64,000 bases of DNA, taken from the NCBI RefSeq assembly GCF_035593305.1, contig NZ_CP141615.1:992001-1056000 (forward strand). Direction: 5' to 3'. The notes under the pieces are model-generated. The model was not told the DNA's origin and did no database searches. It saw only the letters and a program-made list of their open reading frames with translations. Each line of letters begins with the position of its first letter. The stretch's first letter is position 1. A program made the translations under genes and the position numbers. Shown piece by piece: positions 19,268 through 50,698 of this stretch. The DNA is from Limnochorda sp. L945t. Its GTDB lineage: Bacteria; Bacillota; Limnochordia; Limnochordales; Geochordaceae.

Positions 19268-19473
19268 CGTCTTCGAGCCCTGCTGTGTTCGCGGTGAAGC
19301 TGCCATTGTGATGAGCCAACACCATCACAAAGGGAGTCCGGGCTCTGCGGGCGTAGGGCAGGCTGTCCGCTGGCACGGACAGTAGCCCAGGGAGTCCGCA
19401 GGAGGGCACCCACCTGCCTGAGCACCGGGTTCATCAACGGGTAGCCTCAGCGGCACGGCGGGGCTCTTGGTAT
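19268..19473 (+). ncRNA. ssrS: 6S RNA
   Basis: 6S RNA mimics an open promoter and sequesters housekeeping RNA polymerase. A 13-bp closing helix with G-U pairs joins 19275-19287 (GAGCCCTGCTGTG) to 19454-19466 (CACGGCGGGGCTC). The 5' block CTGTGTTCGCGG and the 3' block GGGTTCATCAACGGGTAGCC followed by an AGCGGCACGGCGGGGC-like end resemble the same blocks of E. coli 6S RNA, recalled from memory. There is no plausible gene in the 307-base gap. The position between aspS and rarA is where B. subtilis 6S-1 lies. Ends are estimates. Confidence 0.85.
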
Positions 19474-44346: not shown

Positions 44347-44832
44347 GTGGTGGATGCGGAGCACTGGCCGGGTGACGAGCGCGGCGCAGGGCCGGCACCA
44401 TCCGGCGACGCGGTGGGCGAGGGCATGGGGGCCGACGCGTCGGAAGGGTTCATCGAGTCGCAGGAAGGGGAGCTCGGCGAGGTCCGGATCGCCAACGAGG
44501 TCGTGAGCACCATCGCCGGGCTCGCCGCGGTGGAGGTCGAGGGAGTCGCGGGGATGACCGGCGGCCTCGCCGGCGGCATCGCGGAGATGCTGGGGCGCCG
44601 CAACCTGTCACGAGGGGTGCGGGTCGAGGTCGGGCAGCACCAGGCGGCCATCGACCTCTTCATCGTCATCCAGTACGGCGTACGGATCCCCGACGTGGCG
44701 TGGAAAGTCCAGGAGAACGTGAAGCGCCAGATCGAAACCATGACCGGCCTCGAGGTCACGGAGGTCAACGTGCACGTGCAGGGGGTTCAGCTGCCCCAGC
44801 CGGAGCGGACCGAAGAGAGTCGGGTGCGTTGA
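44347..44832 (+). CDS. Asp23/Gls24 family envelope stress response protein
   Basis: 161 residues. After an acidic, Gly-rich N-terminus of about 40 residues the Asp23 domain begins: GEVRIANEVVSTIAGLAAVEVEGVAGM, LSRGVRVEVGQHQAAIDLFIVIQYG and IPDVAWKVQENVKRQIETMTGLEVTEVNVHV. Members are membrane-associated through AmaP and respond to envelope stress. Two GTGs in tandem (44347, 44350) form the start. A strong extended -10 lies upstream. The amaP gene follows 15 bases later. Confidence 0.92.
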   Translation: MVDAEHWPGDERGAGPAPSGDAVGEGMGADASEGFIESQEGELGEVRIANEVVSTIAGLAAVEVEGVAGMTGGLAGGIAEMLGRRNLSRGVRVEVGQHQAAIDLFIVIQYGVRIPDVAWKVQENVKRQIETMTGLEVTEVNVHVQGVQLPQPERTEESRVR

Positions 44833-44847
44833 GGAAGGAGTCAGGGC

Positions 44848-45465
44848 GTGTATCCGCTGAGCGGTTCGACCTCGGCATCGTCGGCGGCCCAGGGTGAAGG
44901 CGAGCCTCCGGGGCGCTTGCCCGTGATCGACCGGGCGCTGGTCCTGGTGGCCGGCCTCGTGGTGGTGGCGGTCGGCTTCGTCGGTATGACCGTGGGGCTG
45001 TTCGGATGGGATGCCGGGTCGACGCTCTCCTGGTGGGTCGCCCAGGACCCCAACCGCGGGCGGGTACTGGTCTCGGCCGTCGGCGCCGCGCTGGCCGTCA
45101 TCGGGGCGGCAGCTTTGCGGCCGGCCGTGCGCAGCGCGGGCCGGGACCGGACCATCGTGCGTTCGACGAGCCTGGGAGAGGTCCACATCTCGGTGCGGGC
45201 CATCCAGACCCTGGCCCGGCGGGCGGCCTCCCAGGTGCAGGGGATCCGGGAGGCCGAAGTCCAGGTGACCCCCTCTTCCGTGGGGGACGTCAACGTTCGG
45301 GTCATCCTGACCGTGGCCCCCGACGAGCCCATCCCGGAGCTGTGCGACCAGGTCCAGTCTCGCATCGACCAGTACCTGCGCCAGACGGCCGGCGTCAGCT
45401 GCGGGCAGATCCGTCTGGTGGTCAGGGGGATTTCCCGGGACGGCCACCGTTCCCGGTCGGAGTAG
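44848..45465 (+). CDS. amaP: alkaline shock response membrane anchor protein AmaP
   Basis: 205 residues: two helices (ALVLVAGLVVVAVGFVGMTV and VLVSAVGAALAVIGAAAL) and a cytoplasmic Asp23-like domain with GEVHISVRAIQTLARRAA, IREAEVQVTPSS, VNVRVILTVAPDEPIPEL and GVSCGQIRLVVRGI. Homologues anchor Asp23 to the membrane. GTG 44848. Adjacent asp23-amaP genes suggest the two act together. Confidence 0.9.
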   Translation: MYPLSGSTSASSAAQGEGEPPGRLPVIDRALVLVAGLVVVAVGFVGMTVGLFGWDAGSTLSWWVAQDPNRGRVLVSAVGAALAVIGAAALRPAVRSAGRDRTIVRSTSLGEVHISVRAIQTLARRAASQVQGIREAEVQVTPSSVGDVNVRVILTVAPDEPIPELCDQVQSRIDQYLRQTAGVSCGQIRLVVRGISRDGHRSRSE

Positions 45466-47218: not shown

Positions 47219-47466
47219 GGGAAGGAACGGGCGAGGACTCGCTGACCTTCGAGGAGGCCCTCGAGCGATTGGAACAGGCCGTGGAGCGCTTGGAGTCCGG
47301 GGAGCTGACCCTCGAGCAAGCGCTGGAGGCCTATGAAGAGGGTGTGCGCATGGCGCGTATCTGCGCCCAGCGCCTGCAAGCGGCGGAGGCCAGGCTCCTG
47401 GTGCTCTCCCAGCAGCAAGGGCGCGACGTCGCCGTCCCTCTGGAAGACGAAGAGGAGAAACGATGA
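47215..47466 (+). CDS. xseB: exodeoxyribonuclease VII small subunit
   Basis: 83-residue helical partner of XseA. The family core LTFEEALERLEQAVERLESGEL and LEQALEAYEEGVRMARICAQRLQAAEARL is complete. It overlaps xseA by 4 bp (ATGA) and ispA by 4 bp (ATGA), so all three are likely translated in a coupled manner. Confidence 0.95.
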   Translation: MREGTGEDSLTFEEALERLEQAVERLESGELTLEQALEAYEEGVRMARICAQRLQAAEARLLVLSQQQGRDVAVPLEDEEEKR

Positions 47467-48377
47467 GAGCCGCCCCCCTTCCGGGCCGCGCCGCGGCGGG
47501 CGCCGCTTACCTGGAGCGATGGGCCCCGCCTGTGGACGGGGAGCTGGACCGCCTGCTCCCGGCCGAGTCCGAGGAACCTTCCGTGCTCCACCGGGCGATG
47601 CGCTACTCGGCCCTGGCGCCGGGGAAGAGGGTCCGGGGGGTCATGGCGGTGGCCGCCTGCGAGGCGACCGGGGGCGAGCCGCGCTCGGCCCTCCCCCTGG
47701 CGGCGGCGCTGGAGATGATCCACACCTATTCGCTGATCCACGACGACCTGCCGGCGATGGACGACGACGACTGGCGGCGGGGCCAGCCCAGCTGCCATCG
47801 GGCCTTCGGGGAAGGGACGGCCATCCTGGCGGGCGATGCCTTGCAGAGCCTGGCGTTCGAGGTGCTGGCGAGCCTGCCCGAGCGGAGCGGGGTGAGTGCC
47901 CAGACGGCGCTCGCCATCGTTCACCAGGTGGCGCTGGCCGTCGGGAGCCGGGGCATGGCGGGCGGGCAGGCGGAGGACCTGCAGGCGATGGGTGAAACGG
48001 GCGGGCCGGTGCCGGCCGAGCGGCTGTGGAGCATCCACCGGCGAAAGACGGCGGCACTGCTGAGGGCCTCGGTGGTGGCCGGCGGGCTGCTGGGCGTCGA
48101 CGGAGGCCCGCAGGCTTTGGACGGCGCCGTCGTGCGGGCCCTCGGGGAGTTCGGCGAGGCGGTGGGCCGGGCGTTTCAGATCGTCGACGACGTGCTGGAC
48201 GTGGAGGCGGATCCCCGAGAACAGCGGGTGAGCGCGGCCGCGGTACTGGGGAAGGAAGGGGCGCTGCGGGAGGCCGAACGCCTCACCCGGGTCGCGCTGG
48301 AAGCGCTCGAGCCGCTCGGGCCCAAGGCCGGGCCCTTGCGGGACCTCGGCCGGTTTTTGTGCGAACGAACGGTGTGA
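47463..48377 (+). CDS. ispA: farnesyl/geranyl diphosphate synthase (polyprenyl synthetase)
   Basis: Condenses IPP with allylic diphosphates. The first Asp-rich motif is IHDDLPAMDDDDWRRG and the second QIVDDVLDVEADP; KRVRGVMAVAACEATGG and the HRKKT-like HRRKTAALLRASV block are also present. 304 residues is typical of IspA. The ATG overlaps xseB. It is the last protein gene before the noncoding RNA, and the RNA's -10 element overlaps its stop codon. Confidence 0.94.
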   Translation: MRAAPLPGRAAAGAAYLERWAPPVDGELDRLLPAESEEPSVLHRAMRYSALAPGKRVRGVMAVAACEATGGEPRSALPLAAALEMIHTYSLIHDDLPAMDDDDWRRGQPSCHRAFGEGTAILAGDALQSLAFEVLASLPERSGVSAQTALAIVHQVALAVGSRGMAGGQAEDLQAMGETGGPVPAERLWSIHRRKTAALLRASVVAGGLLGVDGGPQALDGAVVRALGEFGEAVGRAFQIVDDVLDVEADPREQRVSAAAVLGKEGALREAERLTRVALEALEPLGPKAGPLRDLGRFLCERTV

Positions 48378-48383
48378 TATACT
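48375..48383 (+). promoter_or_regulatory. extended -10 promoter of the large noncoding RNA
   Basis: TGA TATACT (TATACT at 48378-48383) overlaps the ispA stop. T-rich TTTTGT at 48355-48360 lies 17 bases upstream as a weak -35. The predicted transcript starts near 48390. Confidence 0.55.
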
Positions 48384-48389
48384 GGGGGT

Positions 48390-49050
48390 GCCCCGAAACG
48401 GTGGGTGGCGCAGTATCCTAGTCGGAGCACCTGCTCCTGAGGACGGGCCTAAAAATCCGTCGAGGGCACATCGATGAAGTCCCTGGTGGCGGCTTTGGAC
48501 GCCCAGTCCGGGGTGGCTGCTGGGGGTTAAGGTCGTGGGGCGATCTGCAACGGCATGCAGGCGTGGACCCTGCGACCGCGGAGACCCACGCTCGTGGGGC
48601 GCCCGCCAGATCCGAGTCGGGCCGGGCAAACTACGACGTGGGCTGAACCTGCACGCGGTGCTGCGCACGAGGACCTGGAAGGTGCCGGGTGCCTGCGCTG
48701 GGTGCAGCGTAGCCTGCCTTGAGCCGCCGAAGCGGGATGGCTGGTCCTTCCCATCGTACTCCCCAAGGGCCCGGGCCGTACGGTGGTAGCAGCCTGAAAG
48801 CTCCGGGGCAAAAGAGGCTAGGGGACAGTGTGCTGCGTCGAGGAAAACTCCTAGGCTGTCCTCGCCGAGCGAGGGGCGCTCTGGGGATTGCAGTGTGGTC
48901 TAAGTGGCAATCCAGCCCTGCCGACGGTGACGCGGCAGTGTGGCCGGAAAGGGGAAACCGCCGGGCCGGCGACGGCCCGGAGGGCCGCAGGGAAAACCTG
49001 CTGGACCTCAAGCCACAATATTTACTCAGAGCGCTGCCACCCCCGTGGGG
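48390..49050 (+). ncRNA. OLE (ornate, large, extremophilic) RNA candidate
   Basis: About 660 bases between ispA and an OapA-like gene hold no convincing protein but many perfect hairpins: CCGGGCC/GGCCCGG (48961-48967 with 48974-48980) and GGATTGC/GCAATCC (48885-48891 with 48907-48913), plus GCGTGG/CCACGC pairing near 48572-48595. A possible terminal helix pairs 48403-48409 (GGGTGGC) with 49036-49042 (GCCACCC). OLE RNA is a roughly 600-nt RNA of anaerobic or extremophilic Firmicutes that lies in this ispA neighbourhood, binds the membrane protein OapA and localises to the membrane. Identification rests on context, length and structure, not on an alignment. Ends are estimates. Confidence 0.82.
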
Positions 49051-49076
49051 CCTCCGTATAGCTCCAATGGTCGAGC

Positions 49077-49124
49077 AAACGGCGACGACTCCGGTGCCGG
49101 GAGGCATCCGGACCGTCGCCGTTT
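49077..49124 (+). other. long inverted repeat between the OLE RNA and oapA
   Basis: AAACGGCGACG (49077-49087) and CGTCGCCGTTT (49114-49124) are perfect 11-base reverse complements around a 26-base, partly self-complementary loop. The strong stem ends in GTTTCG with no longer T-run. It could separate the RNA from oapA as a terminator or be a processing site or attenuator. Confidence 0.6.
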
Positions 49125-49175
49125 CGTAGGCGGGCGCACGGGCGAAAGCCGCGCGCCCTGAAGGAGGAGCATCGC

Positions 49176-49817
49176 ATTCCATCCGTGGGGGCGACCAACG
49201 GCAGGCGCCCGCTGCGAAGGTTTTTCAGCATCGGCCTGACCACCGCTGCCATCTCCGCCGTCCTTTCCATCTCGTCGAGCGGGGCGGCCAGCACGTTGGG
49301 GGTCGCGGCAGCCGTTGGGGCGCTGCTCCTGGTCATCGCCACGGGCATCCTCTTCGACGTGATCGGAGTCGCGGCCACCGCGGCGAGCGAGCGCAACTTC
49401 CACGCCATGGCCGCCGACAAGGTGCCGGGCGCGCCCCAGGCGATCTGGATCGTCCGCAACGCGGACCGGGTGGCCAACTTTGCCAACGACGTCATGGGAG
49501 ACGTGGCGGGCACCCTCTCGGGCGCCCTTGGCGCCGCGATCGTCGCCCAGCTCGTGCCCGGCGGGCCGCGCCTGCAGGAGCTCTGGGGAACGGCGGCCAT
49601 CGTCGCCGGCATCTCGGGGCTGACCGTGGGGGGCAAGGCGGCTTTCAAGGCGTTCGCCATCGGCCAGGCGGAGGCGATCGTCTTTCGCATGGGACGGTTG
49701 CTGGCCTCGCTGGAGCGATTGGCGGGCCGCTCCTTCGTCACGGGCGTAGGGCCGGCTCGCGCCTCCGCCTCGGCCCGCAGGCCGCGCGTGGCGGCGGGAG
49801 GGCGAGGCCGCCAGTGA
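49176..49817 (+). CDS. oapA: OapA, OLE-associated membrane protein
   Basis: Predicted membrane protein of about 210 residues with four hydrophobic segments: TTAAISAVLSISSSGAAS, GALLLVIATGILFDVIG, VAGTLSGALGAAIVAQL and AAIVAGISGLTVGGKAA. The segments GILFDVIGVAATAA, FHAMAADKVPGAPQA and NADRVANFANDVMGDVAGTLSGA match my memory of OapA (DUF21-related), the protein that holds OLE RNA at the membrane. A good AAGGAGG (49161-49167) sits 8 bases before an in-frame ATT at 49176; the first standard start, GTG 49185, is 17 bases away. I therefore list ATT. The last 30 residues are Arg/Ala-rich. Confidence 0.85.
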   Translation: MPSVGATNGRRPLRRFFSIGLTTAAISAVLSISSSGAASTLGVAAAVGALLLVIATGILFDVIGVAATAASERNFHAMAADKVPGAPQAIWIVRNADRVANFANDVMGDVAGTLSGALGAAIVAQLVPGGPRLQELWGTAAIVAGISGLTVGGKAAFKAFAIGQAEAIVFRMGRLLASLERLAGRSFVTGVGPARASASARRPRVAAGGRGRQ

Positions 49818-49828
49818 AGGGGCACAGC

Positions 49829-50698
49829 ATGGCGGGCAAGCCGGTGAAGCATCCCCGCGCCGACCAGGCGCTGGTGGAGCAGGCGCTGGCCAGGAGCCGG
49901 GAGGAGGCCCGGCAGCTGATCCTGATGGGAGCGGTGAGGGCCGGCGAGCAGGTGATCTCGCGCCCGGGCCAGCGCATCGACCCCGGCGTGAGGCTGGAGG
50001 TGGCCGGACCTCGCAACCCGTACGTGAGCCGCGGCGGGCTCAAGCTCCAGCGAGTGCTGGAGGAAGTGCCGGTACCGGTAGAGGGCGCGGTCTGCATGGA
50101 CGTGGGCGCTTCGACCGGCGGGTTCACCGACTGCTTGCTGCGACACGGGGCGCGCAAGGTCTACGCGGTGGACGTGGGTTACGGGCAGCTGGCCTGGAAG
50201 CTCCGCAACGATCCGAGGGTGGTGGTGCTGGAGCGCACCAACATTCGGTACCTGCCCCCGGAGCGGATCGGCGAGCCGCTGGACGTGATCACCGTCGACA
50301 CCTCGTTCATCTCCGTCACCCTGTTCCTGGCAAAGCTGCGGGCAATGCTCCGCCCGGAGGGATGGGCGGTGGTCCTGGTGAAGCCTCAGTTCGAGGCCGG
50401 GCGTGCGCAGGTGAAGCGGGGCGGGGTCGTGAAGGACCCCGGCGTGCATCGCCAGGTGCTGGAAAAGGTGGCGAGCTCGGCGGTCGAGGCAGGCTTTCGG
50501 GTCGAGGCCGTGCTGAGGAGCCCGCTTCTGGGCCCCAAGGGCAACCTGGAGTTTTTCGAGGTGCTGCGGCCGCTGGCTTCGAGAGGGAGCGCGGGCGTGG
50601 CGACCGGAGCGGCCACCGTCGACGCCATGATCGAGAGGGCGCTCGCCGAGCCTGCGCCGCGTCAGGAGGAGGCGGGGCAGCCACGGTCCGGAAGCTGA
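49829..50698 (+). CDS. tlyA: TlyA family rRNA (cytidine-2'-O)-methyltransferase
   Basis: An N-terminal S4 RNA-binding domain (RADQALVEQALARSREEARQ) is followed by an FtsJ/RrmJ-like methyltransferase fold: SAM motif MDVGASTGGFTDCLLRHGA, VYAVDVGYGQLAWKL, VVVLERTNIRYL, DVITVDTSFISVTL and the VKPQFEAGR block. 289 residues. ATG 49829 follows AAGGGG by 6 bases; a GTG at 49814 overlapping the oapA stop is an alternative. It follows the OLE-oapA pair as in other Firmicutes, but without dxs between. Confidence 0.93.
   Translation: MAGKPVKHPRADQALVEQALARSREEARQLILMGAVRAGEQVISRPGQRIDPGVRLEVAGPRNPYVSRGGLKLQRVLEEVPVPVEGAVCMDVGASTGGFTDCLLRHGARKVYAVDVGYGQLAWKLRNDPRVVVLERTNIRYLPPERIGEPLDVITVDTSFISVTLFLAKLRAMLRPEGWAVVLVKPQFEAGRAQVKRGGVVKDPGVHRQVLEKVASSAVEAGFRVEAVLRSPLLGPKGNLEFFEVLRPLASRGSAGVATGAATVDAMIERALAEPAPRQEEAGQPRSGS

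Follow-up and report, generated by a model that had tools for sequence, protein, structure and literature searches.

A full-length OLE RNA and its membrane partner OapA in a Limnochordales genome that also carries lipid A genes

Based on the analyses described here, we conclude, with a probability of about 0.97, that a locus of the window, i.e., of the 64,000-nucleotide stretch of Limnochorda sp. L945t DNA that was analysed, holds the genes for a full-length OLE RNA and for OapA, the membrane partner of this RNA, in the order Limnochordales. The RNA is a complete, ordinary member of its family, and the surprise lies in the type of host, a bacterium with two membranes of the Gram-negative kind that is related to the Gram-positive bacteria to which discussion of OLE has been confined. 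The locus itself is not new, the published GTDB survey having very likely included such genomes. Few bacterial non-coding RNAs are larger than OLE. The features of the locus are as follows:

47463-48377, plus strand: ispA (polyprenyl synthetase; PF00348, E 2.8e-45)
48375-48383, plus strand: extended -10 element TGATATACT (read directly; -10-like boxes in relatives)
48389-49056, plus strand: OLE RNA (ole), full length, 668 nt (Rfam RF01071, covariation, single genomic copy)
48403-48409, plus strand: 5′ arm of the terminal helix, GGGUGGC, pairing with 49036-49042
48466-48474, plus strand: CACAUCGAU with the palindrome AUCGAU, P4a region (read directly)
49036-49042, plus strand: 3′ arm of the terminal helix, GCCACCC, pairing with 48403-48409
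49077-49124, plus strand: strong hairpin between OLE and oapA (-34.4 kcal/mol, z -3.5)
49185-49817, plus strand: oapA, 210 aa, four-helix membrane protein (DxxxD, synteny, alignment, predicted fold)
49814-50698, plus strand: tlyA (rRNA cytidine-2′-O-methyltransferase; TIGR00478, E 5.1e-71, above cut-off)

An OLE RNA-OapA locus had been proposed here by a sequence-only reading, which named a covariance search with RF01071 as a check. In this search the model was matched over its entire length (positions 1-616) with 432.4 bits and an E-value of 1.2e-123, against a gathering score of 50; together with the covariation and the DxxxD motif of OapA described below, this bears out the proposal. Of the proposed interval, 48378-49180, the RNA occupies 48389-49056, but the end of the interval is a spacer with the strong hairpin. 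RF01071 was the sole Rfam match in the OLE neighbourhood, a single copy was found in the 3.31-Mb single-contig genome, and a search of fourteen well-known control genomes with the same model gave no match. To examine the structure, 41 OLE RNAs, drawn from the order, the class and the phylum, were aligned, and the Rfam pairs plus the terminal helix were projected onto them. Changes on both sides occur in 123 of 166 pairs, and the covariation score is 0.441, compared to 0.193 for shuffles and 0.10-0.16 when partners were slid by 1-3 columns. In the window sequence itself, 146 of the 159 family base pairs are canonical, in agreement with the several perfect hairpins noticed before. Rfam's structure line leaves the helix joining the 5′ and 3′ ends unpaired, yet 99.3% of its cells are paired and six of its seven pairs show two-sided changes. 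The P7-P9 stems vary in length and fit the family model more poorly, as in other members, and helices 9, 11 and 12 are paired in 44-61% of cells of the 41-sequence alignment. The fold-energy z-score of the window RNA (-3.6) is weak evidence beside covariation. The invariant segments of the OLE alignment are kept, as are AUGAAGU and GUUAAGG, the segments that would flank a k-turn near P5. In the P4a region, reported to be bound by OapA in Halalkalibacterium halodurans (PMC9723947), AUCGAU is the commonest form among relatives, though not the sole one. Judged from the aligned sequences, the window RNA thus keeps its secondary structure under compensatory change.

A promoter had been suspected at the ispA stop, and TGATATACT indeed lies across it: the TATACT box overlaps the stop codon TGA at 48375-48377, and the predicted start at about 48390 coincides with base 1 of the Rfam match. 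The -35 element is poor, and neither a strict sigma-70 consensus scan nor a terminator scan listed a site, TGATATACT included. Nevertheless, all ten of the other aligned OLE sequences from Limnochordales, including one from the same species, have -10-like boxes at this place. Downstream of the RNA, the hairpin at 49077-49124 is followed by only a short T run (TTTCGT). A similar spacer hairpin is present in one relative (G333), and several relatives have an intrinsic terminator at this position before oapA. The hairpin is a candidate for a weak terminator or a 3′-processing element; it may reduce read-through into oapA, and a tandem transcript is uncertain. In H. halodurans, OLE RNA was detected at about 630 nt (PMC9723947). 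In the window genome, ole would have a promoter of its own within ispA and would also be transcribed in the run accC-yqhY-amaP-nusB-xse-ispA-ole-oapA-tlyA-nadK-argR-recN-spoIVB.

The isoprenoid/tlyA neighbourhood that had been claimed was recovered in the order ispA-ole-oapA-tlyA, the start of tlyA overlapping the stop of oapA, and the description of the host as sporulating has support at the level of genes (SpoIVB). It was also correct to call the RNA a high-GC member (67% GC), but such members are common in the order Limnochordales. A Symbiobacterium thermophilum contig likewise carries OLE. Upstream of OLE, two adjacent Asp23-family genes, one yqhY-like and one amaP-like, are located at window positions 44347-45465 on the plus strand; yqhY is reported among the genes most often near OLE. 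Elsewhere in the window, a 6S RNA was detected at 19274-19468 on the plus strand (RF00013, 80.8 bits, E 2.4e-14).

The product of 49185-49817 is supported as OapA by its DxxxD motif and its CNNM-like predicted fold, by synteny and by its alignment with the family. Its start codon is uncertain, as the in-frame ATT at 49176 is better spaced from the AGGAGG at 49162-49167 than the GTG at 49185. An AlphaFold2 model (pLDDT 87.9) has four long helices (residues 7-37, 40-66, 93-123 and 129-160), consistent with the four-helix membrane protein that had been read from the sequence, and the quoted NADRVANFANDVMGD segment is present. The motif, which distinguishes OapA from CNNM domains (PMC11332333), is D102-VMG-D106, and both aspartates are invariant in 66 sequences. 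Among homologues that follow OLE, identity to the window protein is 58-62% within the family and 31-47% across the class and phylum. The homologue beside the full OLE RNA of Marinococcus halophilus is 45% identical. Within the family, changes fall mostly at third codon positions. In the PDB fold search, CNNM transporters take the first six places, and the matches include MtCorB (7M1T/7M1U) and bacterial CNNM/CorC (7CFF/7CFG), with E-values of 0.035-0.41 and probabilities of 0.90-1.00, so that the likeness is remote. 7M1U is also the fold match published for H. halodurans OapA (PMC11332333). Pfam CNNM (PF01595) matched weakly in 33 of 66 OapA homologues. No Pfam family scored for the window protein, and no OapA or OapB model matched in a search of Pfam and NCBIfam. 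When the OapA profile was compared with the genome's single CNNM protein by hhalign, no match was obtained; consequently, the CNNM link of OapA rests on the weak Pfam matches of its homologues and on the fold search.

Candidates for the remaining partners of the OLE ribonucleoprotein (RNP) were found elsewhere in the genome. An ORF between map and infA matches PDB entry 7k9b, “OLE-associated protein B”, over residues 11-97 (E 9.5e-9). The candidate for OapC (YbxF) is an L7Ae-type protein encoded between rpoC and rpsL, which exceeds the cut-off of PF01248; its best NCBIfam match, the L7ae-like PRK13602 (E 1.4e-21), is below the cut-off of that model. The gene for bS21 (rpsU) is present. Going by these matches, the genome encodes oapA, oapB, oapC and rpsU alongside ole. 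There is one CNNM-CBS-CorC (MpfA-type) protein, at 2.318 Mb; OLE carriers are reported to have typically at most one.

The window system resembles that of H. halodurans, a “full-length” OLE type (PMC11332333), in matching the whole model, in its conserved segments, in its position between ispA and oapA, in having a putative promoter of its own and in the encoded partners OapA, OapB, OapC and bS21. It differs in that the RNA has 67% GC, 668 nt and longer variable stems, and in that it occurs in a thermophile that is diderm and carries lipid A genes, instead of a Gram-positive bacterium. OLE variants 1 (TANB77) and 2 (RF39) have a conserved core in common with the window RNA, but their P7-P9 region is short or missing and they often occur without OapB and OapC, whereas the window RNA has long P7-P9 stems and its genome encodes both proteins. 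As to the protein, four long helices, the DxxxD motif and a gene directly after ole are typical of the OapA family, and the modelled fold appears nearest to the archaeal CNNM protein MtCorB (7M1T/7M1U). In contrast to the family, the C-terminal tail is long and basic and no Pfam family scored. The transmembrane fold resembles the CNNM domain of the MpfA/CNNM-CBS-CorC Mg2+ transporters, but OapA is without their CBS and CorC/HlyC domains.

It is extremely unlikely that the interval instead codes for a protein on one strand, its hairpins being by-products of high GC. At 67% GC long open frames are to be expected, and they do occur, for example one of 183 aa on the minus strand and one of 136 aa on the plus. 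However, the same frames are interrupted by stops in nearly all relatives (median 3-5.5 stops across 40 relatives), and indels disregard the reading frame, only 95 of 527 gap runs being divisible by three. This reading was rejected on these two grounds; in addition, compensatory changes lie well above both the shuffled and the slid controls. The earlier impression of about 660 bases without a convincing protein agrees with the 668-nt Rfam match and the unconserved frames, and no coding signal, which would have spoken against an OLE RNA, was seen in the relatives. Alternatively, the conserved region could be a long structured 5′ leader of oapA with a cis-regulatory role and not a free-standing RNA. 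In its favor, 163 of the fetched loci (a count that includes duplicates of some genomes) have oapA after OLE and on its strand, the OapA profile match lying at a median distance of 54 nt. All exceptions to this order in the survey belong to the class of the window, and they retain OLE. In three MAGs from two genera of the window's taxonomic order (G191, L102, C48; G330, L104, C76; G318, L229, C227), oapA is inverted and convergent with OLE, and precedes tlyA where the contig extends that far. In G304 (L223, C67:4930-5547) and G306 (L224, C42:203-766), oapA is unlinked from OLE, on another contig; the OLE locus of G306 (L225) continues with dxs-tlyA-nadK without oapA. Further, OLE has its own promoter, several relatives have a terminator before oapA, and the RNA detected in H. 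halodurans measures about 630 nt (PMC9723947). The leader reading is, therefore, very improbable and was rejected because of the loci with an inverted or distant oapA. These same loci show that cotranscription of OLE and OapA is not obligatory, and they represent natural constructs expressing RNA and protein separately.

The uncoupled OapA proteins form one subtype with one member per genome, 51-56% identical to the G304 member in a comparison of four full proteins and the C-terminal part from G318; the G304 protein shares no more than about 44% identity with any OapA outside the subtype. In a further genome that is 99% complete (G301, L222, C36), no OapA was found with either query, and OLE is followed by dxs; this genome is an apparent exception to the rule that OLE occurs with OapA. 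Outside the survey, Peptococcaceae bacterium 1109 (L117:4866-6237) has oapA before OLE on the same strand. In several MAGs of different families, the draft contigs are broken within the OLE gene or next to it (L102 of G191, L103 and L104 of G330, L077 of G322:C11, and contigs of G323 and G329). A second OLE without oapA is present in G340 (L126, C52:8354-8992, minus strand), 89% identical to the first copy. Downstream of it are genes for a membrane protein of 333 aa and for an MpfA-like CNNM/CBS protein, the latter split in two frames. The altered P4a palindrome of the second OLE was considered as a sign of lost OapA binding, an idea which was dropped since oapA-linked OLEs also carry CCGAU, GCGAU or ACGAU. 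Contamination was considered as well, but the nearest aligned relative is the first copy of the same genome (0.89, next 0.83) and the GC content is similar. A duplication is the more likely origin, although the contig could be misbinned.

The host was identified from kinship and genome form. A genome search found G324 to be of the same species as the window genome, and its contig is that of the MAG Limnochordaceae bacterium Bu05, which has been placed with Carboxydochorda subterranea L945 at an AAI of 97.13%; the L945 genome is among the three from Limnochordales isolates that are closed (PMC11456536). We infer that the host is C. subterranea (spelled Carboxydichorda at NCBI), probably the type strain. 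Transmission electron microscopy of L945 revealed a didermic wall with an outer membrane, and outer-membrane gene markers are reported across Limnochordia (PMC11456536). Lipid A and outer-membrane marker genes were checked in the window genome, where LpxC, LpxB, an LpxA-like acyltransferase, FabZ, LpxD, Omp85 and TamB are encoded in one cluster at 2.72-2.74 Mb. OLE was found in 54 of the 61 genomes searched of the class Limnochordia. A full OLE is also present in a Halothermothrix MAG of another class, described as LPS-diderm.

One could object that the OLE locus is a recent foreign insert or a decayed remnant, leaving the diderm cell without a functional RNP. Many OLE RNAs in the phylum do score higher than its 432 bits, the highest reaching 578, and the length of 668 nt is due to inserts in variable stems. 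Yet OLE is present throughout most of the class, the neighbourhood is the standard one of nearly all fetched OLE loci, the invariant segments are retained, OapA proteins of the family share 58-60% identity, with changes predominantly at third codon positions, and OapB, OapC and bS21 are all encoded. We therefore regard an insert or remnant as very unlikely and a complete, resident OLE locus as the preferred reading.

For the latter, the most economical interpretation, by analogy, would be an RNP in the membrane that acts through OapA to tune the handling of divalent metals. The RNA would fold and dimerise, offering P2/P4a to OapA, the P5 k-turn to OapC and P12.2/P13 to OapB. OapA would be the obligate membrane partner, placing the RNP in the cytoplasmic (inner) membrane, and, being CNNM-like, it probably moves or senses divalent metal ions. 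The RNP may help the cell to withstand cold, alcohols and Mg2+ stress, phenotypes shown only in H. halodurans.

The OLE papers treat OLE as Gram-positive and take its absence from Negativicutes as a hint at the cell wall (PMC11332333), and in a recent model domain 2 of OLE reaches the cell wall (PMC12265935). The implication of a diderm host appears not to be discussed in the literature searched: where “OLE RNA” and “diderm” occurred together, the latter stood only inside a reference title. Here the genes of the OLE RNP persist in a cell that has an outer membrane and carries genes for lipid A. Their persistence thus does not require a thick wall, and the RNP would not be dependent on the Gram-positive one, which is new with respect to the published picture. 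We tentatively suggest, as a possibility to which we give about one chance in three, that in Limnochordia the OLE RNP is active in the inner membrane, within a diderm envelope of the LPS type, so that whatever domain 2 may contact on the outside would be a thin-walled periplasm, and that OLE is an ancestral envelope device of the Bacillota, older than the loss of the outer membrane and not tied to the Gram-positive wall. The full OLE RNP gene set in a cultured diderm offers a direct test of the cell-wall idea.
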